Part shown: positions 36,626 to 62,699 of the stretch, piece after piece | Layout: the number at the start of each line of letters is the position of its first letter | Position numbering within the stretch: position 1 is the first letter of the stretch | Assembly: GCA_946480465.1 (NCBI GenBank) | Contig: CAMLJY010000014.1 | Location: 50,679 to 114,678 of the forward strand | Length of the DNA: 64,000 nt | Reading direction: 5' to 3' | DNA from: an uncultured Burkholderiales bacterium | GTDB lineage: Bacteria; Pseudomonadota; Gammaproteobacteria; Burkholderiales; Burkholderiaceae | Translations under genes and position numbers: made by a program | Notes under the pieces: model-generated | Database searches by the model: none | Told to the model about the DNA's origin: nothing | Seen by the model: the letters and a program-made list of their open reading frames with translations, nothing else

Positions 36626-36670
36626 CTAAATATCTGCAGGTCAACGCGCCCCGCCTGATGAGTAGATATT
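36626..36670 (+). promoter_or_regulatory. TAAATA-hairpin element 1
   Basis: CTAAATA at 36626-36632. The inverted repeat AATATCT (36629-36635) and AGATATT (36664-36670) begins within the motif and spans 28 bases that contain the start codon of the GIY-YIG gene at 36658. The motif follows a terminator directly. Confidence 0.6.
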
Positions 36671-37434
36671 CAAGAGCAACAGAACACGACACCGTGACCA
36701 CCGCCACCTACGCCCTCTTCCACCTCGACCCGCAGGGGGAGCCCGTCCCGTTCTACGTCGGTGAATCGACCGACCCTGGCCGGCGCTTTCGGCAGCACCA
36801 GCGCGACTGTCGAGACCCGCTCACGGAGAAGGAGGCCTACGTCTACCTTCGCGACCTGTCGTTCCCAGAGTTTCACTACGAGGTGATGCACGGCATGACC
36901 GAGGCCGAGGCCGTCGAGCGGCTGACCAAGGCGGGCTTCACGCTCTACAACGGCAACCGCGGGATCGCGGTGACGACGAAGGTGAAGCGCAAGGAGAGCG
37001 AGTGGAGCCGCATCAACCGCGAGGCGATGGAGCGCGTCGAGCGAGCCGAGCGCCGAACGGTGCTGCACAACAGCGCTCAGCAGCTCACGAAGTCCGAGAT
37101 CGTGCGTCAGCGGATCAACGGCGCCGAGCTGGATGTCGACGTGCTCGATGGGTTGACGTGGACCGAGTGCCCGATTGAGCTGATCCCGCGGCAGCGCAAG
37201 CTGCCAAAGAAGCCCGAGGAGTGCCGCGCCGAGTACGTGAAGTACGGCGACATCAACATCTACGTCGGCTGGCGGAACAACGGCAAGAACGCCACGCACT
37301 ACGCGCGCGACACCGCGAACTACAAGGAGTCGACGCGGCAGCTCACGTGGTCCGACAAGCCGCGCACCCGACGCGAGGTGCTCCAGCACCTCGTTTGGTG
37401 CTCAAAGCGCGACGGGTTCTGGTTGAGCTACTGA
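36658..37434 (+). CDS. GIY-YIG domain protein
   Basis: A protein of about 258 aa. The N-terminal segment YALFHLD...FYVGESTDPGRRFRQH has the GIY-YIG pattern in variant form (YAL and YVG) with the catalytic-type Arg in the following helix. The remainder is charged and not recognised. The start is uncertain: ATG at 36658 or GTG at 36694, neither with a clear ribosome site. GIY-YIG domains usually nick or cut DNA; a free-standing phage copy may be a homing-type or host-DNA nuclease. It converges on the secreted-protein gene with a 7-bp overlap. Confidence 0.75.
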   Translation: MSRYSRATEHDTVTTATYALFHLDPQGEPVPFYVGESTDPGRRFRQHQRDCRDPLTEKEAYVYLRDLSFPEFHYEVMHGMTEAEAVERLTKAGFTLYNGNRGIAVTTKVKRKESEWSRINREAMERVERAERRTVLHNSAQQLTKSEIVRQRINGAELDVDVLDGLTWTECPIELIPRQRKLPKKPEECRAEYVKYGDINIYVGWRNNGKNATHYARDTANYKESTRQLTWSDKPRTRREVLQHLVWCSKRDGFWLSY

Positions 37435-37772
37435 AACTTTGCGGGGTCGAGGAGGCAGTGCCGAGTGGCGTAGTCCTCGATCTCTGCCAGCGGCATGCTC
37501 GGCGGCATCATGAAGACGAACTCTGCGAGCTTCTCCTTGCGCCGCAGGAAGGTCTTCCCTTGAGCCTCAGTGATCTTGCCTTCCCGCACCTTCTCGGCGA
37601 GGTATTCCTCGTTCTTGGCGAGATACGTCGCCAGCGTGCTCATGCCAACATCTGCGATTCGGCCTTTTTGCATCACTGCCGCAAGTTGACCAGTCAAACC
37701 ACAGAACTTGGCGTTCTGAGCGTGCGCGCTACCAGCGAGAACCAGGGCGGCGATAATCAGAATCGGTTTCAT
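37428..37772 (-). CDS. Small exported phage protein (114 aa)
   Basis: The chosen start, MKPILIIAALVLAGSAHAQ, is a clear signal peptide with cleavage after AHA; the mature part is about 95 residues with two cysteines. I do not recognise a family. A prophage gene for an exported protein in the - strand block could be a lysogenic conversion or superinfection-exclusion factor, which is inference. The start codon lies in one arm of a perfect 10-bp hairpin. Confidence 0.7.
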   Translation of the reverse strand: MKPILIIAALVLAGSAHAQNAKFCGLTGQLAAVMQKGRIADVGMSTLATYLAKNEEYLAEKVREGKITEAQGKTFLRRKEKLAEFVFMMPPSMPLAEIEDYATRHCLLDPAKFQ

Positions 37773-37859
37773 GCACATACTCCATAGTTGGTATGTGCAT
37801 ATTAAGTTGACGGCTCCATCAAGTACATAGCGGGCGCCAACCAATACTCACCGTGAGTA
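37771..37859 (-). promoter_or_regulatory. Start-codon hairpin and upstream palindrome
   Basis: ATGCACATAC (37771-37780) and GTATGTGCAT (37791-37800) form a perfect 10-bp stem with a 10-base loop. Read on the - strand, the loop and stem edge hold the ribosome site (TGGAG) and the start codon of the exported-protein gene touches the stem, so translation should depend on the stem opening. A second palindrome, TACTCAC-C-GTGAGTA at 37845-37859, lies upstream and looks like a protein-binding site. Confidence 0.55.
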
Positions 37860-37875
37860 CCAGTTAACACCCGGC

Positions 37876-38097
37876 TCATACTCCTGGCGAGTTCTCCTCG
37901 ATATACAGCGTCAGGTCGTCGATCATCTCGGTGAGGTGATCCCGCACCGGCTCCTGAATGAGGTCGCCCATCAGAGCGATGGTGCGGTTTAGCTCCTCCA
38001 GTCCGGCGTACGCGGCTTCGATGACGTGCTCCTGCTTCTTCGCTACGTCGAGCAGGTACTCAAGGTCGGTGGTCTTGCGGGTGGTGATGGTCGGCAT
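37876..38097 (-). CDS. Small acidic phage protein (73 aa)
   Basis: A 73-aa, mostly helical acidic protein (MPTITTRKTTDLEYLLDV) with ribosome site GAGGAG before the ATG. No family is recognised. It lies in the - strand early block between two other small genes. Confidence 0.65.
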   Translation of the reverse strand: MPTITTRKTTDLEYLLDVAKKQEHVIEAAYAGLEELNRTIALMGDLIQEPVRDHLTEMIDDLTLYIEENSPGV

Positions 38098-38120
38098 GCG
38101 TCGTCTCCTCAGCTCACCTA

Positions 38121-38252
38121 CTACTTAGAGCTGAGCGACACCGCGCTCCCGCAGTAGTGCGCCTTGTTCGTCGCGACGGTCCACTCCGTCCAGGCACCGA
38201 GAGCCAGCGTGGCGACGGTCGCGAGCGCGACGGCGATGAGGGCGCGCTTCAT
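38121..38252 (-). CDS. Very small exported or membrane protein (43 aa)
   Basis: Read directly from the sequence: ATG at 38252, stop TAG at 38121-38123. It begins MKRALIAVALATVATLALG, a basic start and hydrophobic helix, followed by about 24 polar residues with one cysteine. AGGAG stands 8 bases before the ATG. Its start overlaps the end of the upstream gene. It resembles a small membrane-anchored phage protein; no family can be named. Confidence 0.65.
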   Translation of the reverse strand: MKRALIAVALATVATLALGAWTEWTVATNKAHYCGSAVSLSSK

Positions 38253-38428
38253 GGCTGCTCCTGGTAGACGGTCGTCCAGAACAGGGTGCCGGGCTGGTCC
38301 AGCACGCTCGTCACGGAGCGGACGATGCCGGCAAAGACGGCGCAGTCGGTGACGTGCGCGGCGATACGGTAGGTGCGGACGACGCCCTCGTTCAAGATGG
38401 GTGCGTTCCAGGTGATGTGGTCGTTCAT
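38249..38428 (-). CDS. Small phage protein (59 aa)
   Basis: Start at 38428 (MNDHITWNAPILNEG) with ribosome site CAGGAG; 59 aa. It has a mixed beta/helix look and no recognised family. A GTAAATA motif lies 27 bases ahead of the ATG (38461-38455, - strand). It overlaps the 43-aa gene downstream. Confidence 0.65.
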   Translation of the reverse strand: MNDHITWNAPILNEGVVRTYRIAAHVTDCAVFAGIVRSVTSVLDQPGTLFWTTVYQEQP

Positions 38429-38454
38429 GGTTGTCTCCTGTGCTTTCGACCGGT

Positions 38455-38461
38455 TATTTAC
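38455..38461 (-). promoter_or_regulatory. TAAATA element 2 (no hairpin directly after)
   Basis: GTAAATA on the - strand in the gap between the primase-helicase gene and the 59-aa gene. Unlike most copies, no inverted repeat begins immediately after it; a GCTTTC/GAAAGC pair flanks the motif instead. Confidence 0.45.
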
Positions 38462-38481
38462 GGGAAAGCCCAGAAAGCCAA

Positions 38482-41400
38482 CTACTTGGTCAGCCGTTTC
38501 ATCTTCGAGTACCACTCGTAGTAAAGGGCCTGAGATTCCGCGTTGATGAAGTAGTGCATCTTGCGCACGCCACCCTGCTGCACCTTCTTCTTGCTCAGGC
38601 GTAGGGCCTTTGCGCCAAGGGTGGCGTCCCACACCTGCTTGTGGTGCTTGGGGTTGTTGGCGTCGGCGATGCGAATGCGTCGCTCGAAGTACAGCGAGAT
38701 GTCGTACTTGTGCTCTTCAAAGGCGGCGGCGAGCTTGGCTAGCTGTTCAGCGGTCACCTGCACGTCTTCAAATCGCGCCGCTTCATGTAGCTGCTCAATG
38801 TCGATGCCTGCTGCTGCGGTCAGGACATCAACGAGCTGTTTGACCTTTGCGCTGTGCTTGATGTCGGTAAACGTCGTGCTGTTCAGCTCGGCGCTGTCGC
38901 GGTCCCGCTCAAGCCGCTGTTCATGCGACAGCAGGAAGTAGTTGAAGGCGTGGCGTACGGACTTGAGAAGCTGCTCTTTCACTGCCTGTCGCAGTGCATC
39001 CACTGTGACATCAATTCCTGCCTCCTCAAGCCGCTCGACGTAGCGGAAGCGTTCAAGGGCCAGCCTGTCGTCGTGGGTGAGTGGCTTGCCATCTTGCTGT
39101 GTGTTGAGCTGCTCATACTCTTCCCAGGTCAGCTCACGCGCCTCGAACAGGACCTTGCCATGATCGGCGTGAAGATCAGCGTGATCTTCAATCAGCTCCT
39201 TGCCAAGATCGCGTTTGGTCTTGTCGAGTTCGTGTTCGACGAAGGTCCAGCCGTCGTTTGCGCGGTACTCGCGGAACTGACGTGGCTTGTGCGTAGACCA
39301 GCTTGAGGCAAGTGCGCGGATGTGGCTGATGAAGCCAATCCAATGTGCTGCGCTCTTGCTTTGAACGTCGTATTTGACGAACTCATCTCGTAGGATCTTG
39401 TCGACCTCGCAGTCGATGTGGAACGACTGCGAGGTTGGCTGCACTTCGGCCGCGTTGCCCTGAATGAAGACGTGATGTGGGACGTTTTGACGAACACGAC
39501 AAAGTGCCTGGTCGTGGTCGAAGAACGTCCCTGGGTTGTGAGAGAAATCGCCATACACACGGTTGAAGTGCTCTACCTCGATAGAGAACCCAGTGTTCAA
39601 TGTTGGCGAGGTGACGATGACCTCGTAGCGAGGTGCCTCGTCCTGCGGGTTCAGGATGAGTGCCTGCACTGCCGGTGTTTCGGCGGTGGCAGAGGTCACT
39701 AGCAGCACAGCCGGGTGCTGCTTGCCTACCTCAAGGCCGTCGCGTTCGTTGAGAACAGTCGAGAACACTGCCGCGACTGTGGTCGCACGCGCTTTCGAGT
39801 TGGTCGCCCAGAAGAGCCTGTCACCGGACGACAGTTGCTGGACGGCATCTACGAGCAGTTGGTGTCGGTCCTCGTAGAGATGGGTCGTGCGGCCCACACC
39901 ATAGCGGTGGGTGTTGTCGATGCCGAGGTGATCATCCGCGTGTGTGAAGTGGTTGCGATAGTCAGCTCGCAGCGCGCGGAATGAAGCCAAGCTCAGTGAT
40001 GACAGGTCAGCATCGAGCAGCACTACCAAGCGAGCACGAGAGATGTAGTGCTGCAGCTTCAGGTAGATGTCGTTGCGGTCGCCTTCGCGAATGTGGTCGG
40101 CGTCCAGCGCCTGCAGCACCTGCTCGCTCTCGTCGATGATGACGGTGTCGTAGGCATCGCCGTGCATAGGCTCACGAATACCAAGGCTGTTCAAACAGAC
40201 GACACAGTACTTGCTCAGCTCTCCTTCGGTCAGGTCTTGGTAGTTGTCGATGCCAAGGTTGGCTGAGGTCGCACGAAGTAGGTTGATGCGGTGACCGATG
40301 AGCAGCGTCGAGCGGTTGTGCCTCTTGTTGTCGGCGATCAGTGGGTGAAGGGTCTTGGTCTTGCCAGTTCCCTTCGGCGAGCGAATGGCGAGGAGGCCCT
40401 GCTTTGGAGCGAGACGAACGATGTCGTCAGAGTGGTCCTTGAGGTCGGCCTCGTTGATGGTGATGACCACTGGCCTGTCGTCAAGCAGGTGCTGCGGTGG
40501 AAGCGGCAGCGGAATACTGACGATCTCACGAGGCTCGGTCGCTGCCTCTTCTTTGCGCTTGCGGCGTTGCAGCGGGGGGAGAGCACCTGCTTCTTCCTCA
40601 AGCTCTTCCAGCGCCTCCCCCGTGACGGCGCGCTTCGCCTTCAGCACGGGAATGAACTGCTTGCCGCCGGCGTTGTCGAAGTAGCAGATGCCGGTCTCGT
40701 ACTTGTAGACGTAGCAGCCGGGCTTCCGATCCGTAGGGTCGTTCAGTCGGTAGCACGAGACGCTCTTGTTCGGCACCATGAGGTCGAAGAGGTCGCCGGC
40801 TTGGATCTCACCGTACTGCACGGTGTTGATGATCTGTGTTGCTGGGACGCGCTCGCCAGTTGCCTCATACGTCACCTTGCGGGCGGCAGGGATCGGGTCC
40901 AGCGGCAGCGCGAGGATGTCGAAGCGTCGCTGCGTCTTGTCTGTTGGGTCGGAGGCCTCGAAGCGGAACGGCAGCTCGGGGTGCTTGATGGGTACGTAGA
41001 ACGGTTGGCTGAACGTGAAGCCGGCCGGGTCAGCGAATGGGAACAGCTCCTTCAGCGCCTTCAGCCGCTCCTTGATGTCCTTCTTCGTCACCTGCCGCTC
41101 AAGAGGCAGCAGCACGCGGAACTTCTCGACACCGCCGTGCTTGGCAGGGTTCAGGTGATTGAAGGACGTGTAGAGCAGAAACTGCAGTCCCCTGACCTCC
41201 TGCAGGGCCTCTTCGACGGAGCAGCTTGGCAGCGCGTCTCGGCCCTTTGGCGCCGGATCGTTGTCGATGTCGAGGACCAGGAAGTGGATGGCGACGACGT
41301 TCTCATCGCACCGCGAGTAGGCGGGGGTAAGCGTGCCGTGAAGGTTGAAGCCTTGGGTCTTGGCCCCGTCCTCAAGGGTCCGCATCTCGGCCGGAACGAA

Positions 41401-41562
41401 GAGGGGAAACGGGGTGTTGCGACGATCCTCACGGACGAGAGGTGTCGAGAAGGCCTCGATCAGCTCGGGCCATGTGTAGGTGTGGTGCTGTACGCGCTTG
41501 GTCTTGACGCTGTCGCAGAGCGTAAGGTGGAAGCGACGGGCTGGTGGCTTGAGAGCGGTCAT
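38482..41562 (-). CDS. Replication protein: AEP-like primase plus SF2 helicase
   Basis: A 1026-aa protein from the ATG at 41562; the frame extends 19 codons upstream but that part is proline-rich and unlikely. The N-terminal part looks like an archaeo-eukaryotic-type primase: LVLDIDND with Asp98 and Asp100 as metal ligands, then YTSFNH and FRVLLPL. The second half is a superfamily 2 helicase like the origin-binding replication proteins (Herpes ori-bp / CyRepA1 group): Walker A SPKGTGKT with Lys401, a DE box VIIDESEQ near 477, LLDADLS, and a later motif region TSPTLNTGFS. It should open and prime the phage origin, which probably lies in the next gene upstream. Confidence 0.85.
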   Translation of the reverse strand: MTALKPPARRFHLTLCDSVKTKRVQHHTYTWPELIEAFSTPLVREDRRNTPFPLFVPAEMRTLEDGAKTQGFNLHGTLTPAYSRCDENVVAIHFLVLDIDNDPAPKGRDALPSCSVEEALQEVRGLQFLLYTSFNHLNPAKHGGVEKFRVLLPLERQVTKKDIKERLKALKELFPFADPAGFTFSQPFYVPIKHPELPFRFEASDPTDKTQRRFDILALPLDPIPAARKVTYEATGERVPATQIINTVQYGEIQAGDLFDLMVPNKSVSCYRLNDPTDRKPGCYVYKYETGICYFDNAGGKQFIPVLKAKRAVTGEALEELEEEAGALPPLQRRKRKEEAATEPREIVSIPLPLPPQHLLDDRPVVITINEADLKDHSDDIVRLAPKQGLLAIRSPKGTGKTKTLHPLIADNKRHNRSTLLIGHRINLLRATSANLGIDNYQDLTEGELSKYCVVCLNSLGIREPMHGDAYDTVIIDESEQVLQALDADHIREGDRNDIYLKLQHYISRARLVVLLDADLSSLSLASFRALRADYRNHFTHADDHLGIDNTHRYGVGRTTHLYEDRHQLLVDAVQQLSSGDRLFWATNSKARATTVAAVFSTVLNERDGLEVGKQHPAVLLVTSATAETPAVQALILNPQDEAPRYEVIVTSPTLNTGFSIEVEHFNRVYGDFSHNPGTFFDHDQALCRVRQNVPHHVFIQGNAAEVQPTSQSFHIDCEVDKILRDEFVKYDVQSKSAAHWIGFISHIRALASSWSTHKPRQFREYRANDGWTFVEHELDKTKRDLGKELIEDHADLHADHGKVLFEARELTWEEYEQLNTQQDGKPLTHDDRLALERFRYVERLEEAGIDVTVDALRQAVKEQLLKSVRHAFNYFLLSHEQRLERDRDSAELNSTTFTDIKHSAKVKQLVDVLTAAAGIDIEQLHEAARFEDVQVTAEQLAKLAAAFEEHKYDISLYFERRIRIADANNPKHHKQVWDATLGAKALRLSKKKVQQGGVRKMHYFINAESQALYYEWYSKMKRLTK

Positions 41563-41579
41563 TGCGCTGAGGGTCCCTT

Positions 41580-41691
41580 GGTAGCTCGGAGGGGGTGGTG
41601 GGGAGCTACCACCCACCACCCACGCCGGCTCATGACTTCCAGCGCTTCCCCGTTGAAGGCCTGACGGCCATCTTGTTGACCCTCTATTTAG
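41580..41691 (-). promoter_or_regulatory. TAAATA element 3 and leader hairpin of the primase-helicase
   Basis: CTAAATA on the - strand at 41691-41685 is followed about 12 bases on by a short hairpin (GGCC-GTCA-GGCC). Closer to the start codon, GAGCTACC/GGTAGCTC (41603-41610 with 41580-41587) makes a perfect 8-bp stem over 15 bases. The leader is about 120 bases long and probably controls expression of the replication protein. Confidence 0.5.
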
Positions 41692-41727
41692 GCGTTTTGC
41701 TGGGTTTCTTGGGTTTTCGGCAGCGTC

Positions 41728-42672
41728 TTACGCAGGTTGAGTGCTGATGTCGCGCTCGATCAGCCTCTTGAGCTTGACGATCTCCCGTTCAATCGCCTTG
41801 TTGGCGTTTGACATCAGCTGGATGACCGATGGCTCGTACGACGGGCGCATGATCCTGGAGCTGTCGTTCAGCAGAATGCGGCAGGCTTCGCGGGACTGGG
41901 CATGTGCCAGGATCGTCTTGAGGATGGTCTGCGCCATGCAGTCAAGGTCGATATCCCAGAAATGGTGGTACGGCGGTAGTGGGTGGCCATGGTTTCTAGT
42001 GGCCTCATACTCGTCGAAGAGGCACTCAAGGGTGGTTTTGAACCTCTCCCCATTCTTGATACGTTCGACTAGGGCTTGTGGGTTGGGCTGCATAGTGGTC
42101 TCCAAACTAGCTGGTTGGTCTGGGGTAACTTCCCCGGGTTTCCTAGCTAATTTATATCGACCACCTGATTCCACACATTCGCTGATGGTTAGAACCTCAC
42201 CGGCTGACCCTTTGGGCCCTTGAGTCACGTCAAGTGTCCCAACTTGACGAGGTAGTGAATATTGATTATTGACTGCTTCGTCAAGTTGGGACACTTGTTG
42301 GGACACTTGTGGTCGTTGAAGCTCTGTCTCAGTCCGTGTCCCAACTTGACGAGGTAGTGAATATTGATTATTGACTGCTTCGTCAAGTTGGGACACTTGA
42401 CGTGACTCAAGGGGGCCGTGCCCTGCCTCAGCAGCGCGATCCACGGGAGTGCCGCCGTCCGCCGCCCCCGGCTCCCCAGGCTCCACGGCTCCCAGGACGC
42501 TCGCGAGCTGCTCGGCCTTCTCCTGGTGCCACCGAGCCCAGCGGGCCTCAAGGCCCCTGGAGGTCTTCTTTCGCCACCAGTCGGGCTTTGGCCGACCACG
42601 GTGGTAGTTGCCAATGCGCTCCGCCGCTGCCGCCTTCTGCTCATCTGTCCAAACGTAGCCACGTCGCGGCAT
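41728..42672 (-). CDS. Putative replication-associated DNA-binding protein with internal origin repeats
   Basis: A 314-aa protein. The N-terminus (YVWTDEQKAAAAERIGNYH, then RGRPKPDWWRKKTS) resembles the NUMOD-type DNA-binding helices seen in homing endonucleases. The middle contains a 34-residue-period repeat with the block VSQLDEAVNNQYSLPRQVGT twice, encoded by the palindromic repeat cluster at 42217-42413. The last 121 residues form a separate helical domain. An internal ATG at 42093 has an excellent ribosome site (TTGGAG, 8 bases), so a 121-aa short form starting MQPNPQALVERI is likely. The arrangement of an origin inside a replication gene recalls phage lambda O. No enzymatic motif is visible. 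Confidence 0.65.
   Translation of the reverse strand: MPRRGYVWTDEQKAAAAERIGNYHRGRPKPDWWRKKTSRGLEARWARWHQEKAEQLASVLGAVEPGEPGAADGGTPVDRAAEAGHGPLESRQVSQLDEAVNNQYSLPRQVGTRTETELQRPQVSQQVSQLDEAVNNQYSLPRQVGTLDVTQGPKGSAGEVLTISECVESGGRYKLARKPGEVTPDQPASLETTMQPNPQALVERIKNGERFKTTLECLFDEYEATRNHGHPLPPYHHFWDIDLDCMAQTILKTILAHAQSREACRILLNDSSRIMRPSYEPSVIQLMSNANKAIEREIVKLKRLIERDISTQPA
42217..42413. other. Probable phage replication origin: nested palindromic repeats
   Basis: A 197-bp element inside the coding sequence above. Two identical 64-bp units (42234-42297 and 42336-42399) start 102 bp apart. Each unit is itself a hairpin with 17-bp arms (GTGTCCCAACTTGACGA and its complement) around an A/T-rich centre (GAATATTGATTATTGA). 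The whole is bounded by a perfect 34-bp inverted repeat (42217-42250 and 42380-42413). The 12-mer TTGGGACACTTG or its complement occurs at 42231, 42286, 42298 and 42388, with a partial copy at 42334. Iterated sites plus A/T-rich segments next to a primase-helicase gene fit an origin. Confidence 0.65.
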
Positions 42673-42709
42673 ATAACCCCCGGAGATATTGAACTCACGG
42701 GGTATTTAC
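42673..42709 (-). promoter_or_regulatory. TAAATA-hairpin element 4
   Basis: GTAAATA on the - strand (42709-42703) is followed by ACCCC and, 19 bases later, GGGGT or by CCCCG/CGGGG, just before the start codon at 42672. The pairing would cover the G-rich ribosome site. Confidence 0.5.
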
Positions 42710-43396: not shown

Positions 43397-43403
43397 CTAA
43401 ATA
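43397..43403 (+). promoter_or_regulatory. TAAATA element 5
   Basis: CTAAATA 28 bases ahead of the first late-block gene, followed by the strong ribosome site AGGAGGGAG. No clear inverted repeat begins directly after the motif in this copy. Confidence 0.5.
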
Positions 43404-43430
43404 GCCGTGAGAACAGCAGGAGGGAGCCAC

Positions 43431-44063
43431 ATGGAACCCAAGCCCAAGAACGAGCGAATCAGCGAGGCCATACGTCGCCGGTGGGCTGACCCCGCCTTCA
43501 AGCAGCGCTACAGCGAGCGCCACGCCGAGCGCATGAAGGACCCCGAGTACGCCGCAGCCCGTCAGGCTCAGTGCGCCGCCGCCGGACGCCGGTCGTGGGA
43601 CGACCCCGAGACGAGGGCCCAGCGCGCCGCTCAGACGGGTCAGCTCCTGCGCGCCATGTGGCAGGACCCGACACACCGACCCCGCCTCCTCGCCAACCTG
43701 AGGAACCGCGTCCTTACACCGGAGGCCCGTGCCCTTCGCAGCGCCAAGACGCAAGCGAGCTGGACCGATCCCGTCTACCGCGAGGCCATCACCACCAAGG
43801 TCAGCACGTCAATGCTGGCGCAGTGGGCTGGACGCAGCGACGAAGAGCGCGAGCAGGTGGCGAAGCGCATGGGCAGTGGGCAGGCCGCGTCATGGGCCGA
43901 CCCAGTGAAGGGGCCGCTGCGGCGCGCTCGCTTCCTCGCCTCGTACGACAAGAAGCCATCGACCCTGCCCTACCTGGAGCCAGGGAAGTGGGAGGCCATG
44001 AGCCGCGATGAGCGCGTCGAGTGGCAGCTAGGAATTACCAACCAGTCCAAGGAGACCGAATGA
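43431..44063 (+). CDS. WxDP-repeat protein, likely DNA-binding
   Basis: A 210-aa protein from the ATG with ribosome site GGAGGGAG; an upstream GTG at 43407 is less likely. A short motif recurs at intervals: RWADPAF, SWDDPET, MWQDPTH, SWTDPVY and SWADPVK, each followed by a basic helix. This resembles chains of NUMOD-type DNA-binding modules found beside homing endonucleases, here without any nuclease core. As the first gene of the late block it could regulate or take part in packaging. It is coupled to the next gene by ATGA. Confidence 0.65.
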   Translation: MEPKPKNERISEAIRRRWADPAFKQRYSERHAERMKDPEYAAARQAQCAAAGRRSWDDPETRAQRAAQTGQLLRAMWQDPTHRPRLLANLRNRVLTPEARALRSAKTQASWTDPVYREAITTKVSTSMLAQWAGRSDEEREQVAKRMGSGQAASWADPVKGPLRRARFLASYDKKPSTLPYLEPGKWEAMSRDERVEWQLGITNQSKETE

Positions 44064-44434
44064 AGCCCATCTATGCCCGTCGCGCCAATCACGGCGGCCC
44101 TGTCTACACGGCTGTCCCGAACGGCGTCGTCCCATCTGCCCCTGCGCCTACCACCGCGCACGAGATTCCAACAGGCTGGTCGTATAACTGGCCCGCTACG
44201 GAGACCGGTCAGGTGGTCTGGCAAACCGATCCACGGTACTCACTAGGCTCCAAGCAGACGGAGTGGGACACCCCCTACATGGCGTGCACACGTCATGAGG
44301 ATGCGGCGCAAGCCGAGTGGAACCGTCGCATGGACAACTGGCTGAAGACGGCTCCGCAGGGCCTTGCCGCAATGGCGACTGCCATCGCTCGACTTGGCTG
44401 CGCATTGAACACCAAGGCCGACAGCGCCTCGTAA
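44060..44434 (+). CDS. Unknown phage protein (124 aa)
   Basis: Start at the ATG overlapping the preceding stop, with AAGGAG before it. The protein begins MKPIYARRANHGGPVYTAV, is rich in Thr, Pro and Trp in the middle and ends in a helical stretch. No family is recognised. Its stop codon TAA is part of a GTAAATA element. Confidence 0.6.
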   Translation: MKPIYARRANHGGPVYTAVPNGVVPSAPAPTTAHEIPTGWSYNWPATETGQVVWQTDPRYSLGSKQTEWDTPYMACTRHEDAAQAEWNRRMDNWLKTAPQGLAAMATAIARLGCALNTKADSAS

Positions 44435-44456
44435 ATACCAAGCTGCTCCACTTGGT
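44431..44456 (+). promoter_or_regulatory. TAAATA-hairpin element 6
   Basis: GTAAATA at 44431-44437 followed at once by ACCAAG (44437-44442) and CTTGGT (44451-44456) with an 8-base loop. The motif overlaps the stop codon of the preceding gene. Confidence 0.6.
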
Positions 44457-44657
44457 TTCATGAGCGTCCATTGCACATGGTCGACAGCGCCTTCGGAGGA
44501 GCAGCGGGGAAACCAGTCCCTCGAAGAACCGGAGCGCTGTGAATCCGGGTAAGTGTGGAATGTGCTGCGAAGGTCAACTGCCGCAAGGCTAAGAACCACC
44601 GCCTTCACGAGAGGGGTCCCAACGGACCCCTCTGTCGTTTGACCTGCCCTGCCTTCT
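44457..44657 (+). other. Leader region before terminase, possible mini-gene and 10-bp hairpin
   Basis: A possible 30-codon frame starts at 44460 (MSVHCTWSTAP) and ends at 44552, and a cysteine-rich frame without good support follows. AGAGGGGTCC (44610-44619) and GGACCCCTCT (44624-44633) form a perfect 10-bp hairpin with a 4-base loop, but only a weak T-tract follows, so it may be an attenuator rather than a full terminator. Nothing else is recognised here. Confidence 0.4.
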
Positions 44658-44691
44658 CTAAATACGCGGCCCCAATGAACAGAGAGGCCGC
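44658..44691 (+). promoter_or_regulatory. TAAATA-hairpin element 7
   Basis: CTAAATA at 44658-44664, then GCGGCC (44666-44671) and GGCCGC (44686-44691) over 14 bases. The stem lies directly against the terminase start codon at 44695 and includes the likely ribosome site. Confidence 0.6.
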
Positions 44692-44694
44692 CGG

Positions 44695-46475: not shown

Positions 46476-46500
46476 CCCAACGACCTGCGCGACCACCCCA

Positions 46501-46535
46501 CCACCTAAATACGTCCTACCAGACCGTTTAGGTGG
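46501..46535 (+). promoter_or_regulatory. TAAATA-hairpin element 8
   Basis: Here the motif itself is in the stem: CCACCTAAA (46501-46509) pairs with TTTAGGTGG (46527-46535), a perfect 9-bp inverted repeat over 17 bases. The portal start codon follows 9 bases after the stem. Confidence 0.6.
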
Positions 46536-46543
46536 ATTGACGC

Positions 46544-48061
46544 ATGCAGCTTCTCACCCTTCCTTTCCAGCGCGGCCACGCCAGCCCTCCCATTGCCGAG
46601 GGCCTCTCCAAGGAGCAGTGGGTCGCCCTTCTGCACACCGAGCGGGCCAAGTGGGCGTGCAAGTCGCTCAACTACCTCGACGGCAAGCAGCACGAGGAGG
46701 TGGTGAAGTTCCTGTCGGACCCCGAGTGCGGCCGCAAGGACTGGCGCGCTCGCGGCTTCGTGCCTCGCTACCGCAACATCACCGCTGCCGTCGTTGAGAA
46801 GAGCGGGACGCTCTACCGCGACAAGGCGCCGACGCTGGAGGTGTGGACCGGAGACACCGAGAAGCCCGACGACGGCCTGACGCAGCGACTCTCGGACGAG
46901 CTGCACAAGCTGGAGTGGGTCGAGTTCTTCTCGAACCTGGACCGCGTCGTTCGCCTTCTGAAGACCGCTCTCGTGCTGGTGCAGTGGGACCCGGCCGAGC
47001 GAATGCTGGTGCTTGACGTGCTGCACCGTGGCAACTGCGAGGTGGTGCTGAACCCGGCCACCCGCCAGATCAGCTCGCTCATCCACCGCACGAGCGACGA
47101 CCCCGAGCACACCACGTACCGCATCTGGACGCCCGACGAGGTCATTGACCTTCAGCACCAGGGCACCGAGGTCACCGTCATCAACGTCGAGCCGAACACG
47201 CTCGGCGTCGTCCCGGCCGCCGTCTTCTACGACACCGCGTCCCCTCGCTCCGGCTTCTGGGTCGAGGCCCCGCAGGACCTCGTTTCCTTCAACGAGCTGC
47301 TGAACATCCACCTCACGGACAGTGAGCGCGCGATCCAGTGGGCGAAGAACCCGACCCTCTTCACGAACGGTCGCTTCCGCTCCAGTGGTGATGACCGCAT
47401 GGAGGTCGCCGAGGTCTACGGCTCGCCGCTGCCTCGCCTTGCCGCCGCCACCCCGTCGCTCACCGGCGGACCCGGTCAGGCAGTGCTGATCGACTCCACT
47501 GGCGTCGAGTCGCTCTTCATCGACTACAAGGGACCGAACCCGGACCTGAAGAGCCTTGACGAGGTCGTCATGGGGTGGGCGCATGCCTTTGCGTCCGACT
47601 GGTCCGTCCGCATGGATGTGGCCGGTGAAGGCCGTGCCTCTTCGGGCTTCCAGCTCGTCGTCGAGGAGCTGCCGAACATCGACCTTCGGCGCCAGCGCAC
47701 GAAGGCGGCACAGGCGGGCTTCAAGCGTCTCTTCCGCGTGCTGCGAACCGTCCTCGCTCCGGTGATGTCCTTCCCCGAGCAGGCCGAGCTGTACGTCACC
47801 TTCCCCGAGCCCGTCATCGCGACCGACCCGATGGAGCGCGAGCAGCTTTGGACCGAGCGCATCAAGCAGGGTCGCGCCACCGTCATCGACTACTTCGTCG
47901 AGGTGCTTGAGCTGACCCCCGAGGAGGCGGCCAAGAAGCACGCCGAGATCGTGGCCTTCAACGCGGCCAACGCCACGTCAGCGCAGCCTCAGACCGATGA
48001 GACGGAAGGCGCTGAACCTGACGCTGCGGATCAAGCGGATTCACTAAATACCGGCACCTAA
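46544..48061 (+). CDS. Phage portal protein
   Basis: A 505-aa SPP1-type portal protein by size, position after the terminase and general pattern (acidic C-terminal tail, central FSNLDRVVRLLKTALVLV and APQDLVSFNELLNIHL). It forms the dodecameric channel at the capsid vertex and docks the terminase. The C-terminal end overlaps a TAAATA element. Confidence 0.88.
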   Translation: MQLLTLPFQRGHASPPIAEGLSKEQWVALLHTERAKWACKSLNYLDGKQHEEVVKFLSDPECGRKDWRARGFVPRYRNITAAVVEKSGTLYRDKAPTLEVWTGDTEKPDDGLTQRLSDELHKLEWVEFFSNLDRVVRLLKTALVLVQWDPAERMLVLDVLHRGNCEVVLNPATRQISSLIHRTSDDPEHTTYRIWTPDEVIDLQHQGTEVTVINVEPNTLGVVPAAVFYDTASPRSGFWVEAPQDLVSFNELLNIHLTDSERAIQWAKNPTLFTNGRFRSSGDDRMEVAEVYGSPLPRLAAATPSLTGGPGQAVLIDSTGVESLFIDYKGPNPDLKSLDEVVMGWAHAFASDWSVRMDVAGEGRASSGFQLVVEELPNIDLRRQRTKAAQAGFKRLFRVLRTVLAPVMSFPEQAELYVTFPEPVIATDPMEREQLWTERIKQGRATVIDYFVEVLELTPEEAAKKHAEIVAFNAANATSAQPQTDETEGAEPDAADQADSLNTGT

Positions 48062-48088
48062 ACACGACGGGCGGATGCCCACAGGTGC
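48044..48088 (+). promoter_or_regulatory. TAAATA-hairpin element 9
   Basis: CTAAATA at 48044-48050 inside the last codons of the portal gene. GCACCT (48054-48059) pairs with AGGTGC (48083-48088); a smaller GGGC-GGAT-GCCC hairpin sits in the loop. The scaffold start codon at 48092 follows directly. Confidence 0.6.
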
Positions 48089-49677: not shown

Positions 49678-49710
49678 ACAAAGGCCGGTTCGTCCGGCCT
49701 TTGTTCTTTC
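49678..49710 (+). terminator. Rho-independent terminator after the capsid gene
   Basis: ACAAAGGCCGG (49678-49688) pairs with CCGGCCTTTGT (49694-49704) over TTCGT and is followed by TCTTTC. This would let the capsid gene be transcribed above the level of the tail genes, which then need a new start or read-through. Confidence 0.85.
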
Positions 49711-49718
49711 TGCGACCC

Positions 49719-49746
49719 CTAAATACGTCCACACCAACGAGGGACG
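49719..49746 (+). promoter_or_regulatory. TAAATA-hairpin element 10
   Basis: CTAAATA at 49719-49725 just after the capsid terminator, followed by CGTCC (49726-49730) and GGACG (49742-49746) over 11 bases. The stem contains the ribosome site (GAGGGA) of the next gene. Confidence 0.6.
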
Positions 49747-51341: not shown

Positions 51342-51372
51342 CTAAATACGTTCACGAACTTCTCGTGAACGT
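51342..51372 (+). promoter_or_regulatory. TAAATA-hairpin element 11 (strongest stem)
   Basis: CTAAATA at 51342-51348, followed directly by a perfect 10-bp stem: ACGTTCACGA (51348-51357) and TCGTGAACGT (51363-51372) with loop ACTTC. The tail-tube start codon is 57 bases further on, with its own ribosome site outside the stem. Confidence 0.65.
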
Positions 51373-51428
51373 CTGTGTTCCTCCCGTGAGCACTGGCGTC
51401 TCCGTACGTCCTTCAAGGGAGAGAACAC

Positions 51429-55201: not shown

Positions 55202-55210
55202 GGAGACGAC

Positions 55211-56801: not shown

Positions 56802-57415
56802 TGCGAACCGTCCACCTCATCGGTGCCTACGGCGACCGAATGATCGACCTCGACGCCGACAGCCCAGTGATGCTGTTCCGTGGCCTGCAAAGTCAGGTTC
56901 CGGGCTTCAAGCGCGCCATGCTTGAGCACCCCAACGCCTGCGTTGTGCTATCGAACGACGACCGCACGGAGTTCGAGTGCCTAACCGAGGACACGGCCAA
57001 GTTCACGTTGGGCAAGTGGACGCGCATTCACATCGTGCCGGTAACCGAAGGCAGCTACGGCTTCGCCGAAGTCGCGGCATACATCGCATCGACGTACGGC
57101 ATCAGCGCCGTCTACGCCTACGCCATCACTGCTGTGATCTACATCGCCGCTTACGCCGCGATCAGCCAGATGCTGGCTCCATCACCAGAGACTGGCGGCA
57201 CAAAGGCTGACGAGAACAAGTCCAACCTCTTCGACGGCGTCGAGAACATCACCCGTCCAGGCGGACCCGTTCCCATCGTGTACGGCAAGCACATGGTCGG
57301 CTCGACCGTGCTCGCGTCCGACCTTTCAACGACAGAGATTCCATACGTACCGCCTGAGCCAGACGTGACAAGTCCGCCTGAGGAAGAGTGGCAATTTGGA
57401 CACGGAGGTTCATGA
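56798..57415 (+). CDS. Tail assembly protein I-like
   Basis: A 205-aa protein of the lambda gpI family with a hydrophobic central segment (ISAVYAYAITAVIYIAAYAA) and the conserved NLFDGVENITRPGGPVPIVYG near the C-terminus. It acts in tail-tip assembly between K and J. Confidence 0.88.
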   Translation: MMRTVHLIGAYGDRMIDLDADSPVMLFRGLQSQVPGFKRAMLEHPNACVVLSNDDRTEFECLTEDTAKFTLGKWTRIHIVPVTEGSYGFAEVAAYIASTYGISAVYAYAITAVIYIAAYAAISQMLAPSPETGGTKADENKSNLFDGVENITRPGGPVPIVYGKHMVGSTVLASDLSTTEIPYVPPEPDVTSPPEEEWQFGHGGS

Positions 57416-60400
57416 GCATGAAAGCAATCAAGGGAGCATTCGGCGGCGGCGGTGGAGGTGGTGGCACGGAAGCGCCAAACACGCTGCGCGCATCGACCAC
57501 GCTCAAGGTACTTGACGCCCTTTGCGAGGGACCCGTCGAAGGCCTCATCGGCGGTGCGAAGGGCATCTACCTCGACTGGACTCAGCTCCAAGCGTCGAAC
57601 GATGAGTACAACTTCCCTCGGGTAGCGTGGGACTTCCGCAGCGGGCTGCCAGTTCAGGACTACATCCCAGGCTATCCGTCAGCGTCCTCTCCAGTAGGCA
57701 TCAATACGGTGGTTACGACAACCACGCCAGTGGTCCGCACATCACCATCGACCGCTGACTCCTCTGACGTGACGATCAACACGCCACAGGGCATGCTTGA
57801 GTTCGATGGTGGTGACCAGAAAGGCTCGTCGGTCACGTACACCATTGAGACGAAGCTGACTAGCTCGGGCACCTGGGCAAACCTGCAGACCTTCACCATC
57901 GAGGGTAAGACGGGCAACCCTTACGAGCGCACGCACAGCATTCCGCGCCCTGCTGGCACAGGCGACTGGGACATTCGCGTAAGCCGCGTGACCCCCGACG
58001 CCACCACCAATTCAGTTCGCAATCAGATTAGCTGGCTTCGCCGCACCGACAAGGCAGAGATCCAAGAGGAGTACGAGAACACTGTCATCACGGCGATGTC
58101 CGTTGATGCTGAAGCGATGGGCGGCCGGATTCCGCTGCGGGGCTACCTGCTCAAGGGCCTCATCGTCAAGATTCCGTCTAACTTCAACGGTGAAACGCGC
58201 GTCTACACGGGCACATGGGACGGCACCTTTACCACTGGCTGGACCGACTGCCCTGCTTGGTGCCTGTACGACCTCATCACGAACGCGCGCTACGGCGCGG
58301 GTGAGTTCATCACCGAATCGCTGGTCGACAAGTACAGCTTCTACGACGCCTCGGTCTACTGCGCTGAGCAGGTGGACGACGGCAACGGCGGCACCGAGCC
58401 ACGCTTCTCGCTGAACTGCATCATCAAGGACCGCGACGAGGCACAGAAGTGGTTTGCCACCCTCGCCGGCACGATGCGCTCGAACCTCATCTGGGTTGAC
58501 GGTCTACTCACCGTCGTGCAGGACCGCCCCGAGGACGCTGTCAAGCTCATCACCAAGGCCAACGTCATCGACGGCTTGTTCGAGTACAGCGGCACGTCCA
58601 TCTTCAACCGACACACCGCGTACAACGTGACGTGGAACGATCGCGCCGACCGTCACTTCCAAAAGGTCACGTCGCTCGACGCCACCACAGCGGCTGATAT
58701 CGCCCCCTCCTACGTCACAGCCCTGTCGTCCGCTCAGGACCGCTACGGTTACGTGCCCGCTGACATCGCGGCCTACGGCGCGACCACCCAGGGTCAGGCC
58801 ATTCGCCACGCGCTGTGGGCGCTGGACACCGAGCTGACGCAGACCGACGCCGTTCGGTTCAAGATGTCGCTCAACGGCTTCGCGCTGCGTCCTGGCGACA
58901 TCGTCAACATCTACCAGGAAGACTACGCTGAGGTCGCTGGCTCCGGTCGCATCGTCTCTGGCTCAGGCACGTCCTACGTGCTAGACCGCGCGGTGACCCA
59001 CGGCGGCGCGAATGAGCTGTCGGTTCTGCTGGCTGATGGGGTGACCATCGAGACGCGAGCCGTCACCGGCGGCTCGGGCGTCAACGTGACCATTGCGTCG
59101 CCCTTCAGCCAGTCGGTTCCTGCTGGTGCTGACTTCCACTTCATCACGACCGTCGAGGCCCGTCCCTTCAAGATCATCTCGATCAAGGAGGACGAGAACC
59201 TCACCGTCGCAGTTGAAGCGCTGTTCCACGACCCGGCGAAGTACGACCGCGTCGAGGAAGGCATCTTCATCCCGCCTCCCACCTACACCAACACCGTCAG
59301 CGGAACTGTCGGACCCCCGAGCAACCTCGTCATCACCGAGCTGGGTCGCCCAGCCGACAACAGCGTCTACCGCAACCTCCTGCTTTCGTGGGACCCACCG
59401 ACCGTGGGTGTCGCCGCGTACTACACGATCCACTACCGCAAGGACGGCGGCAACTGGGAAATCGCCACGCCTATCAGGTCGCCCGTGCTAGAGGTGCCCA
59501 ACCTCGCCCCAGGCACCTACGACCTGAAGATCTACTCGGTCTCAATCCAGGGCAACCAGTCCGCCACATCGCTCGACGACACATACACCATTGACGTTGC
59601 AGGCGGCTCGTCCGACCTTGAGGCTCCAACGAACCTTCAGCACGACATCACCGCGTCGACGACAGCGTTCGAGGGCAACGAGATTCCGCTGCGCTGGACC
59701 AACCCTGCTACGCAGGCCGACATGCTCACCGCAGCTCTGATGGACTTCGAGGTGCGCGTCATCGACCCCGACGACGACACCATCCTTCGCACTGCCTACT
59801 TCCCTGCGGTGGCCGCTGGCGCCGTGCAGCGCGGCATCTACGACTACGCGTCGAACGTTGCCGATGGCGGTCCACGTCGCTCAGTGAAGTTTGAGGTTCG
59901 CTGCCGCGACACGAACTACAAGCTGTCCGCGCCTGCGACCGTCACGATGACGAACCCAGCACCTGCAGTGCCGGACAACATCACGACCTTTGCGATTCCA
60001 GAGGGCATCGCGCTTTCGTACGACCCCGTGTCCGATGCGGACAAGGCTGGCTACGTCGTTTGGGCAGACACAACCCCAGGCTTCACACCGTCTGCCAGCA
60101 ACCGGCTCGTGCTTGGCAACGTCACGCAGCACACCTTCACTGCGCTTCCGGCTTCGACGACCTACTACTTCCGCGTTGCTGCTTACGACACGTTCACCAG
60201 CGACGCTGCTCTTGAGACGGGCACAGGCCTGAATCTCTCTGTTGAGGACAGCGTCACCACGCTCAGTGCGACCTCGTCTACCAACACGGGCTACGTGGTC
60301 GCCTACAAGCGATCAGCGACCGCTCCGACCGACAACCCAGGCGACGTGACGTTCACCTTTGGCACGGGGATCACAACCCCTGCCACCGATGCGCTTGCCA

Positions 60401-62646
60401 ACGGGTGGACAAAGACGATCCCAGCATCCGACGGCAATCCGCTCTACATCATCGGTGCGGTAGCTGGCGGAACTGGTGCCACAGACACGGTGCTGGCCGC
60501 AGAGTGGGACGACCCGATCCTGATGGTCAACGACGGCCTGGACGGCATCAACTACACAACGGTTCACCTGTACCGGCGCACCGCTACCAACTCGGCACCG
60601 TCGCTTACGGGTACGACACCCGCGAACGACCTCACATACACATTCTCGACCGGAGCAATGACCGGCACGCCGCCATCTGGCTGGTCGCTCACCATTCCTG
60701 GCTCAGGTGGTGCATACCTCTGGCGAGTCGATGCTCTTGCGTCGAGCAGCACTGCGACTGACGTGATTCCGTACACCCGCTGGTCGACGCCGTACCTGTT
60801 TGCCTCAGACGGCGCGAATGCAGTCTCGTACTGGCTGCAGACCTCGGCCGCTGCCGTACAGAAGTCGCTCTCGAACGTCTTCACACCAACGACGCTTTCG
60901 GTCACTGGCCGCACGTCCAGCGGTTCGTCCGTGTCGAACTACGCGGGCCGGTTCATCATCGCCACATCTACGGATGGTTCGTCATGGACCGACCGCTACA
61001 CGTCGGCGTCCAACGAAAGTTCCTACGTCTGGACCATCACCCCCAGCTCGACGAACTTCATCCGTGTTCGGCTCTACGAAGCAGGTGGAGTGACGAACCT
61101 GCTGGACGAGGAAATCGTTCCGACGGTGAGCGAGGGTGCGGTTGGTGCTGATGGCAAGGCAGCTATCACGGTTGTCGTACAGAACGACAAGGTTACGCTG
61201 CCAGCCGACAGCGCCGGTACGGTGTCCAGCTACTCAAACTCGGGCGCCTCAATCAGCGTCTATGAAGGTGGGACGGCGCTGATCTACAACTCGTCGATCC
61301 CGGTTGGCGCTCCAGGCAAGTTCACAGTGGGCACACCGACGGTCACGAACGGCACCATTACCGTTCCGTCCCCCTCATACAGCGGCCTCAGCACAAACAC
61401 GGCAACGGTCGGCAACTCATCAAGCATGACGACAGACACCGCAACGATTCGGTGGCCGATCACCATCTACCGTCTCGACGGCAGCATCGACTCGGTCACC
61501 TACTACGCGACGCAGTCAGTGGGAAAGGCCAAGCAAGGAGCGACTGGTTCAACGGGCTCAACGGGCAACACCGGAGACAGCGTCCGCTACGCCTACGCGC
61601 TCTTCACTGGTTCTCCCGGTTCCGTCACATGGGATGTCGGCTCTACGCGAACGGTATCAGGTGACACCCTTCCGGGTAGCTCAACGGTGTCCAACCCAGA
61701 CGCTGCTTCGATCTGGACCGCTACACCACCAACTCCGTCGGCTGGTCAATCGGTGTGGGTCGCGTTTGGCAAGTACCGCATCGCCACGAACGACACGGTG
61801 TGGGACAGCCCCATCCTCAACACCCTGAGGGTGAACCAGCTCTCGGCGATCACGGCCGACATGGGCACGCTTACTGCCGGAACCATTGACACATCGGGGT
61901 GGATTCGAGCGCAGGGCAACACCTCGCTCAGCGTCCCGTTCTTCGGAGGCTCTGTCACACGCACTGCCGCGGTCATCTCCAATACCTCGCTCGGTGCTCA
62001 AGTAGGCCTGTACGGCAACTCAACATCCACGAGCGGCTTTGGGGTTATGGGTGCCAATGCAACCGGCTACTCAGGGGGGTCATACGGCGTAGGCGTCTAC
62101 GGCGAGGGTGGCATCGGCGTCCAGGGCTACGCTCTGAACACGTCATCGATTGGTGTCTTTGGAACGATGGGCTCGTCGCTCACCATCGGCAAGGCGGGCT
62201 ACTTCGGTCTGAACGGCAATTCGAACAGCGGCGCCATCGGAGTTGAGATTGATGCGTCGAACCAGAACCAGAAGGCGCTGACGACTCAGGGCGGCAAGAT
62301 CGAGTTCAACGGCGACGGCTCGACGCAGGAGATGCGGCTCAAGACCTCCGTGCGCGGAAGCTCGGTGGGCTACGGCGTGATGCACGCGATGTCGTCGACC
62401 AACTACCAGATCAACCTGACCAGCTCTGGAAACGCAGGTGGTTCGGCAAGCGTCACCTCGCTGGACATCACGATGTCTACAGGCAACGTGGCAGTGCGTG
62501 GTCTCTCGCTGACCAACATGACGGTCGGCACGGGTGCCGCGACAGCGACGTTCTCTGGAACCAACAAGCCCGGCGCCAACACGTCCAACACCTGGGTCAC
62601 GATGGTCATCAACGGTACGACCTACTACATCCCTGCTTGGACATGA
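57412..62646 (+). CDS. Central tail fibre / host-specificity protein J-like
   Basis: A 1744-aa protein; the ATG with CACGGAGGTTC before it is coupled to the preceding stop. The N-terminal half is the conserved gpJ tip domain (ALCEGPVEGLIGGAKGIYLD, GYLLKGLIVKIPSNF). Fibronectin type III-like modules follow (PPSNLVITELGRPADNSVY, EAPTNLQHDITAS), then repeated beta modules. Near residue 1370 is a short collagen-like run of Gly-X-Y triplets (GATGSTGSTGNTG). The glycine-rich end (GVGVYGEGGIGVQGYA and after) probably binds the receptor. J decides which cells are infected. Confidence 0.93.
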   Translation: MSMKAIKGAFGGGGGGGGTEAPNTLRASTTLKVLDALCEGPVEGLIGGAKGIYLDWTQLQASNDEYNFPRVAWDFRSGLPVQDYIPGYPSASSPVGINTVVTTTTPVVRTSPSTADSSDVTINTPQGMLEFDGGDQKGSSVTYTIETKLTSSGTWANLQTFTIEGKTGNPYERTHSIPRPAGTGDWDIRVSRVTPDATTNSVRNQISWLRRTDKAEIQEEYENTVITAMSVDAEAMGGRIPLRGYLLKGLIVKIPSNFNGETRVYTGTWDGTFTTGWTDCPAWCLYDLITNARYGAGEFITESLVDKYSFYDASVYCAEQVDDGNGGTEPRFSLNCIIKDRDEAQKWFATLAGTMRSNLIWVDGLLTVVQDRPEDAVKLITKANVIDGLFEYSGTSIFNRHTAYNVTWNDRADRHFQKVTSLDATTAADIAPSYVTALSSAQDRYGYVPADIAAYGATTQGQAIRHALWALDTELTQTDAVRFKMSLNGFALRPGDIVNIYQEDYAEVAGSGRIVSGSGTSYVLDRAVTHGGANELSVLLADGVTIETRAVTGGSGVNVTIASPFSQSVPAGADFHFITTVEARPFKIISIKEDENLTVAVEALFHDPAKYDRVEEGIFIPPPTYTNTVSGTVGPPSNLVITELGRPADNSVYRNLLLSWDPPTVGVAAYYTIHYRKDGGNWEIATPIRSPVLEVPNLAPGTYDLKIYSVSIQGNQSATSLDDTYTIDVAGGSSDLEAPTNLQHDITASTTAFEGNEIPLRWTNPATQADMLTAALMDFEVRVIDPDDDTILRTAYFPAVAAGAVQRGIYDYASNVADGGPRRSVKFEVRCRDTNYKLSAPATVTMTNPAPAVPDNITTFAIPEGIALSYDPVSDADKAGYVVWADTTPGFTPSASNRLVLGNVTQHTFTALPASTTYYFRVAAYDTFTSDAALETGTGLNLSVEDSVTTLSATSSTNTGYVVAYKRSATAPTDNPGDVTFTFGTGITTPATDALANGWTKTIPASDGNPLYIIGAVAGGTGATDTVLAAEWDDPILMVNDGLDGINYTTVHLYRRTATNSAPSLTGTTPANDLTYTFSTGAMTGTPPSGWSLTIPGSGGAYLWRVDALASSSTATDVIPYTRWSTPYLFASDGANAVSYWLQTSAAAVQKSLSNVFTPTTLSVTGRTSSGSSVSNYAGRFIIATSTDGSSWTDRYTSASNESSYVWTITPSSTNFIRVRLYEAGGVTNLLDEEIVPTVSEGAVGADGKAAITVVVQNDKVTLPADSAGTVSSYSNSGASISVYEGGTALIYNSSIPVGAPGKFTVGTPTVTNGTITVPSPSYSGLSTNTATVGNSSSMTTDTATIRWPITIYRLDGSIDSVTYYATQSVGKAKQGATGSTGSTGNTGDSVRYAYALFTGSPGSVTWDVGSTRTVSGDTLPGSSTVSNPDAASIWTATPPTPSAGQSVWVAFGKYRIATNDTVWDSPILNTLRVNQLSAITADMGTLTAGTIDTSGWIRAQGNTSLSVPFFGGSVTRTAAVISNTSLGAQVGLYGNSTSTSGFGVMGANATGYSGGSYGVGVYGEGGIGVQGYALNTSSIGVFGTMGSSLTIGKAGYFGLNGNSNSGAIGVEIDASNQNQKALTTQGGKIEFNGDGSTQEMRLKTSVRGSSVGYGVMHAMSSTNYQINLTSSGNAGGSASVTSLDITMSTGNVAVRGLSLTNMTVGTGAATATFSGTNKPGANTSNTWVTMVINGTTYYIPAWT

Positions 62647-62667
62647 TGCGCTGAAGCCGCCCCGTCC

Positions 62668-62699
62668 CTAAATACGGTCACAACTTCTGGAGTGACCGT
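62668..62699 (+). promoter_or_regulatory. TAAATA-hairpin element 12
   Basis: CTAAATA at 62668-62674, followed directly by ACGGTCAC (62674-62681) and GTGACCGT (62692-62699) with a 10-base loop AACTTCTGGA; the loop edge holds a ribosome site (TGGAG) for the leader frame at 62701. Confidence 0.65.

Follow-up and report, generated by a model that had tools for sequence, protein, structure and literature searches.

In phage lambda, late transcription is governed by one promoter and the antiterminator Q. The late promoters of phage T4, which head late structural genes on both strands, consist of a lone −10 box, TATAAATA, with the core TAAATA and no −35 element, and are served by gp55, gp33 and gp45. 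The boxes span −13 onwards and lie about one helical turn 5′ of the RNA start, gp55-type late transcription is treated as a general feature of the T4-related family, and gp55 is ranked among the most divergent sigma proteins (PMC2988020). The Aeromonas phage Aeh1 is described there as having a/gC at positions −13/−12 instead of TA, giving CTAAATA (PMC2988020). In the T4 e, soc, 49 and I-TevI mRNAs the ribosome site or start codon is held in a helix, and the late promoters of e and I-TevI are placed such that the 5′ strand of that helix is missing from late RNA (PMC3014915). A similar arrangement is described for I-TevII, I-TevIII, segB and Aeh1 mobE (PMC2988022).

An element with the same core was followed in a lambda-like prophage of the window, the 64,000-nucleotide (64-kb) stretch of DNA analysed. 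The prophage runs from near 31.5 kb past the window end and carries integrase genes from about 31.5 kb, and large terminase, scaffold, major head, connector, tape-measure and lambda J-type tail genes, in an order that is lambda-like and not T4-like. Its integrase gene is abutted by a comEC-like gene at 29762–31540, which has Competence and metallo-beta-lactamase domains and begins at position 30 of the Competence profile; the prophage may be inserted inside comEC, with the other side beyond the window. Three consecutive integrase-like genes lie within 31536–35798, the first being long and matching phrog_95 and a DNA-invertase family, the second (33065–34144) matching the later part of phrog_95 only, and the third (35208–35798, minus strand) being partial and of another family. 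Among phage records, a head-to-tail DNA query (megablast) and a portal tblastn gave no match, and a capsid tblastn gave 50 records, all below 60% identity and mostly Streptomyces phages, with identities of about 26–32% among the 20 matches listed. Viral contigs scanned with a single portal protein yielded no locus, and an Rfam search of 31000–64000 yielded no family at gathering scores.

The twelve (C/G)TAAATA copies listed by eye in the earlier note were all confirmed, and they make up the full TAAATA count on both strands of the window, against 0.74 expected and a maximum of 4 in 100 shuffles. The preceding base is C at nine sites and G at three. Every copy lies in the prophage half, between 36,626 and 62,674, and the chromosomal half has none, as had been stated. 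The further claim that all copies lie in gaps or gene ends depends on gene calling, because reading the frames by hand leaves 12/12 either between genes or at the very end of one, in its last codons or stop, whereas a mechanical choice of the longest ORF puts 5/12 inside an ORF. Placement on the sense strand of the following gene, also claimed for every copy, held at 11 of the 12; the exception, 44431 (+), has nothing after it but a 30-codon frame and a terminator. All twelve sites have the TAAATA core of the T4 late box, and the preceding TA is absent in this phage.

The leftmost element (36626–36632, plus strand) stands just 3′ of a terminator-like hairpin with a T-run (36590–36612, plus strand) and precedes a gene starting at 36658 that resembles GIY-YIG (E 6e-4, below the Pfam cut-off); its stem, AATATCT 36629–36635 with AGATATT 36664–36670, reaches across codons 3–5. 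Three elements are on the minus strand. That at 38455–38461, before a 59-codon frame (start 38428), has a weak stem, GGTCG 38451–38447 with CGACC 38423–38419 (P 0.14); that at 41685–41691, before the replication gene (ORF 41619–38482), has no stem of note; and that at 42703–42709, before a 314-aa gene (start 42672), has the stem CCCCG 42702–42698 with CGGGG 42682–42678 at the ribosome site (P 0.13). The remaining elements are on the plus strand, and the one at 43397–43403, before a gene starting at 43431, likewise has no notable stem and is followed by a strong ribosome site.

The element at 44431–44437 overlaps a stop codon and has the stem ACCAAG 44437–44442 with CTTGGT 44451–44456 (P 0.08). 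It heads a short unit (44431–44640) made up of TAAATA, this 6-bp stem, the 30-codon frame and a terminator-like hairpin at 44610–44633, and may represent either a very small gene or a small RNA. The same hairpin lies 5′ of the next element, 44658–44664, before the gene (start 44695) that precedes the large terminase gene, where the stem GCGGCC 44666–44671 with GGCCGC 44686–44691 adjoins the start codon. Before the portal-position gene (start 46544), at 46505–46511, the stem CCACCTAAA 46501–46509 with TTTAGGTGG 46527–46535 pairs the motif itself with the ribosome site. In the last codons of that gene, before the scaffold gene (start 48092), the element at 48044–48050 is followed by GCACCT 48054–48059, paired with AGGTGC 48083–48088 on the ribosome site. 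Between the major capsid gene and the head-tail adaptor (start 49750), the element at 49719–49725 lies 3′ of a terminator-like hairpin (49678–49704) and has the stem CGTCC 49726–49730 with GGACG 49742–49746 (P 0.06). The two last elements are 51342–51348, before a minor-tail-protein gene (start 51429), with a perfect 10-bp stem (51348–51357 with 51363–51372) that is possibly a terminator but has a weak T-run, and 62668–62674, between the J-type tail gene (ending at 62646) and 62736, with an 8-bp stem (62674–62681 with 62692–62699) and a weak T-run. At neither of these two is the annotated start covered by the stem.

Relatives were gathered by capsid, portal and tail queries and comprised one apparently complete Variovorax prophage, with 65% capsid identity, and many IMG/VR contigs. 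The GC-rich ones among them have more TAAATA than expected, largely on one strand and at the same gene junctions. With the main strand set by the capsid gene, contig G024 has 14 copies on it against 0.5 expected (1 on the other strand), G030 has 13 against 1.9 (other strand 0) and the Variovorax prophage 26 against 6.7 (other strand 7). Where the motif count itself decided the strand, G056 (GC 0.61) has 18 against 0.6 (other strand 0), G037 has 11 against 0.9 (other strand 1) and G057 has 10 against 0.4 (other strand 1). A 73%-GC contig has 6 against 0.0, with 2 on the other strand. Main-strand enrichment at P<0.02 was obtained for 26 of 133 loci, at least 7 of the 26 being further pieces of contigs already counted, and five of 20 regions (G021, G022, G025, G026 and G027) gave no clear pattern. 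In AT-rich contigs the count alone is uninformative. To tell the hexamer itself from a mere A/T-richness of gaps, TAAATA was ranked among the 64 hexamers of A and T only, in the window's prophage, the Variovorax prophage, G024, G030, G056, G057, G037, G054, G040 and G063. It is the commonest on the main strand in 10/10, and with both strands pooled it is first in nine and second in G030. The earlier note had named as a refutation that TAAATA be equally common inside genes or on antisense strands, and this was not found in the relatives.

The portal-position, scaffold, capsid/adaptor and tail junctions carry TAAATA both in the window and in relatives. Within 180 bases 3′ of the capsid gene it occurs in 30 of 55 distinct loci, these being loci with a near-full capsid match and enough sequence, with identical junctions removed, and some copies in AT-rich members of the 30 may be due to chance. 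Of the 25 loci without it, 12 have a capsid identity below 50%, compared with 3 of the 30 with it. In most of the 30, inspection by eye showed the capsid stop and the motif separated by a terminator-like hairpin of varied sequence; in L040, L238, L255 and L188 this hairpin starts at the motif itself. A scan of 499 sites from 67 loci with GC of at least 0.44, against 10 mononucleotide shuffles, found a T-run hairpin just 5′ of TAAATA at 30 sites versus 1.2 in shuffles, and one beginning at +3 to +8 at 12 sites versus 0.3; two of the 12 are window sites with weak T-runs, 51342 and 62668. In GC-rich relatives TAAATA often comes right after an intrinsic terminator and 20–50 nt 5′ of a start codon, and this order of terminator, motif and gene is as expected of a promoter.

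Beyond the hexamer little is conserved in 174 sites from 24 loci with GC of at least 0.5. T is scarce just before TAAATA (10/174), and the preceding TA of the T4 box is likewise present in only 10/174. No −35 signal was found in these sites, no position outside −6 to +18 exceeding 0.12 bits, in agreement with what the earlier note had seen in the window. Ribosome-site-like words occur from +12 on, with one earlier, and peak at +18 to +22. Given the T4 spacing reported in PMC2988020, +1 would fall at offset +11 from TAAATA, and A is enriched at this position (66/174, P 7e-4 uncorrected), being frequent at +14 too.

The stems are unrelated in sequence and length and were judged by register and by shuffle tests. 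The nine inverted repeats described earlier exist as written, and summing stem scores over the twelve window sites gives 194, whereas 300 dinucleotide shuffles average 134.0 (sd 7.5) and never exceed 161. The excess is weaker against random positions of the same prophage (z 3.6, P 0.003), and single sites reach P<0.05 at 5/12 in one stem test and 6/12 in another. In other contigs the excess has z 5.5 (G024), 4.8 (G017), 3.4 (G008) and 3.3 (Variovorax prophage), and in many relatives z is near zero or below. When best stems were sought anywhere in −35 to +30 at 421 sites of 65 loci, they started at +4 to +6 at 15 sites, against a shuffled mean of 1.05 and a maximum of 3 in 20 shuffles. This range was picked once a first analysis, covering some of these sites, had peaked at +5, with 7 of 74 strong stems beginning at exactly +5. 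Loci chosen for their gp55 genes in other phages, independently of the motif, show this register as well, the stem starting at +3 to +8 at 10/154 sites (shuffled mean 1.0, maximum 4). The suggested compensatory variation is broadly borne out in that unrelated stems recur in the same register here and at the post-capsid junction of a few relatives, but not in the many relatives without a stem excess. The stem is hence not a fixed part of the TAAATA element, and most relatives are stemless at most sites.

The 3′ arm either covers a ribosome site or start codon or sits before a T-run. With the RNA starting at +11, the 5′ arm would lie mostly upstream of the transcript and be complete in read-through RNA only. 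Where a start could be called in the window (11 sites), opening the start region is predicted to cost on average 18.0 kcal/mol in the read-through transcript, compared with 12.0 in the local transcript and 15.3 once the upstream sequence is shuffled. The largest predicted read-through effect is at 36626, where opening costs 19.9 in read-through and 7.9 in local RNA. Hiding of the start by read-through reaches P≤0.05 at 4/11 window sites, and at 2/6 with stricter start calling. The stricter calling gave an overall z of 3.9 for read-through versus shuffled upstream sequence at 158 sites, with 3.0 for the window (6 sites) and 4.0 for G024; chance predicts 7.9 in each tail, and 22 of the 158 fall at P≤0.05 and 12 at P≥0.95. 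Most of the signal is due to the window, G024, G008 and one site of G026, and |z| is below 1 in 11/18 contigs. Hiding of the ribosome site is thus supported for some sites and is not a rule.

A gp55 gene was found in two relatives. T4 gp55 matches a protein of G030 (E 5e-9; phrog_234 E 7e-31) whose gene lies just 5′ of the terminase genes, and in L208 a gp55 gene (phrog_234 E 4e-26) adjoins the portal gene, the TAAATA sites of L208 proving little because this contig is AT-rich (GC 0.35). The small-gp55 profile matches the solved T4 gp55 (7d7c, E 5e-13), and the small proteins keep an A-F pair near the C-terminus, from which a clamp motif might be inferred. In all, phrog_234 was found in 2 of 70 related records (1/32, then 1/38), many of which are fragments and some without the motif pattern. 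In the window, where this prophage is visible up to 64,000, in the Variovorax prophage, which seems complete, and in the contigs fetched, unfiltered hmmsearch and a motif regex both turned up no gp55 other than that of G030. The outcome was the same when the gp55 profile was aligned by hhalign to 465 and then 243 single proteins, a weak test since these had no alignments of their own, and 10 Variovorax proteins put through family scans gave no gp55. The non-structural genes shared across contigs included no universal factor. A 154-aa Variovorax protein encoded 5′ of the terminase genes was considered as a hidden gp55 and rejected, having a weak Pfam match to phage G1 gp67 (E 0.07), a protein search that matched only itself and a low-confidence predicted fold (pLDDT 50). 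Being so divergent a sigma (PMC2988020), gp55 can escape detection. A gp55-type factor in this phage is likely.

The case for the TAAATA element being a T4-late-type promoter is strong, and we infer its activity from the placement at conserved junctions, mostly on one strand and often after terminators, and from gp55 in two relatives; of the hypotheses first offered, a T4-late-like −10 element is the best supported. Probably, such a promoter with a gp55-like sigma is merged at many sites with a hairpin insulating against read-through. A lone −10 box of a lambda-like temperate siphophage would be recognised by the host's RNA polymerase, directed by a small gp55-like late sigma that the phage encodes; RNA would begin 11 bases past the first T of TAAATA, and at many sites the promoter would form part of the 5′ arm of a hairpin that starts at its last base. 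Read-through RNA from the upstream operon would hold the complete hairpin, which would either mask the place where translation of the next gene begins, at its ribosome site or start codon, or stop transcription at a T-run, and promoter-started RNA, lacking most of the 5′ arm, would be translated and not stopped. Each such junction would both start one late gene and insulate it from its neighbour, a mechanism made plausible by the good register statistics and the T4 precedent. A bolder version, less likely than not, is that T4-style late transcription from TAAATA boxes is used across a whole lineage of small temperate phages of lambda type, with a factor unrecognisable as gp55, the box being the 5′ arm of a dual-purpose insulator in which one unit of about 30 bp would end or translationally silence the upstream RNA and start the next gene.

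That the hexamer is a late promoter box read by an unrelated phage activator or sigma of the same preference is rather unlikely. In its favour, no gp55 was found in the apparently complete Variovorax prophage. This prophage encodes a small Fis-type HTH protein (L017:1404–1595) after the replication genes, with TAAATA directly before it and relatives in G006, G008 and G009, but with no clear match in the window, G024 or G030. Against such a factor speak the identity of the hexamer with the core of the T4 late box, the gp55 genes of two relatives, the divergence of gp55 (PMC2988020), which may let it go undetected, and the 99 copies of TAAATA versus about 32 expected in 19 gp55 neighbourhoods of other phages with GC of at least 0.5, a set that includes two near-duplicates and has no gp55-free comparison set. 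It is improbable that RNA starts at the last A of the box and each late mRNA bears a protective 5′ hairpin, as the words 5′-hairpin messages had implied. The stems do start at that A, but T4 late RNA starts about one helical turn 3′ of the box (PMC2988020), A is enriched at +11 with ribosome-site words from +12, and several stems would mask the ribosome site of their own message. Under T4 spacing the 5′ arm would occupy −6 to about +4, and because the local transcript would lack most of it, the hairpin is better assigned to the read-through RNA from upstream.

An exact six-base motif without conserved surroundings is not known to be typical of RNase E sites. Such a motif with nothing conserved around it is what is present here, and a terminator-like hairpin precedes 30/499 sites and overlaps 12/499, where a new start would be needed, so that an RNase E-type cleavage site beside a stem, also proposed at the outset, is very improbable in spite of the position of the motif in A/T-rich gaps of GC-rich genomes. 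Least credible of all is a binding site for a phage DNA protein acting in packaging, replication or silencing with no role in transcription; the Variovorax prophage does encode a protein with an H-NS C-terminal domain (L015:9253–9777, Pfam E 2e-10), similar by eye to proteins of G008 and G009, but the strand bias and the placement before start codons and after terminators argue against it.

The T4-late-type promoter, taken as the preferred reading, shares with T4 the lone TAAATA-core box without −35, at the head of late structural genes and on both strands, and differs in belonging to a lambda-like temperate siphophage, in having C/G-TAAATA with the first two box bases not kept and in that no gp55 was found in the window. 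As in the hairpin-gated genes e, I-TevI, segB and Aeh1 mobE (PMC3014915, PMC2988022), the promoter is predicted to form part of a hairpin's 5′ strand, and this hairpin to hide the ribosome site in read-through RNA alone; the GIY-YIG-like gene at 36658 directly fits the T4 homing-endonuclease case. In contrast to those genes, several such sites belong to this one prophage, mostly at structural genes, and relatives have a terminator version. The tail gene order is of lambda type, but many promoter-like boxes and terminators are present and not one antiterminated late operon. New compared with these precedents are the lineage of phage, the occurrence at several structural genes within a single prophage, and the terminator version in relatives. 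Among the matches listed in a full-text literature search that lacked most subscription journals, none dealt by its title or abstract with late promoters of T4 type in temperate lambda-like phages, which is weak evidence of absence. Among the 40 matches listed of 1711, the phage records with a small gp55 are all of at least 149 kb; a gp55-type system in lambda-like prophages of about 40 kb would, if true, widen its range and offer compact systems for study. The hairpin register suggests a design rule in which start, stop and read-through control are packed into about 30 bases, and TAAATA together with this register would serve as a sequence handle for late promoters in GC-rich phages.

Two further arrangements were seen in the relatives. 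At L048:17706 and at positions 2705 and 25077 of the reversed G003 contig the start codon lies exactly 11 bases after the T of TAAATA, as do five of the 158 starts called in the stricter analysis, and late RNA may be leaderless where this is so. The Variovorax prophage has a divergent pair of TAAATA, at L015:13106 (minus strand) and 13124 (plus strand), flanked on one side by minus-strand genes that by eye resemble membrane or lysis genes and on the other by the gene before the large terminase gene.
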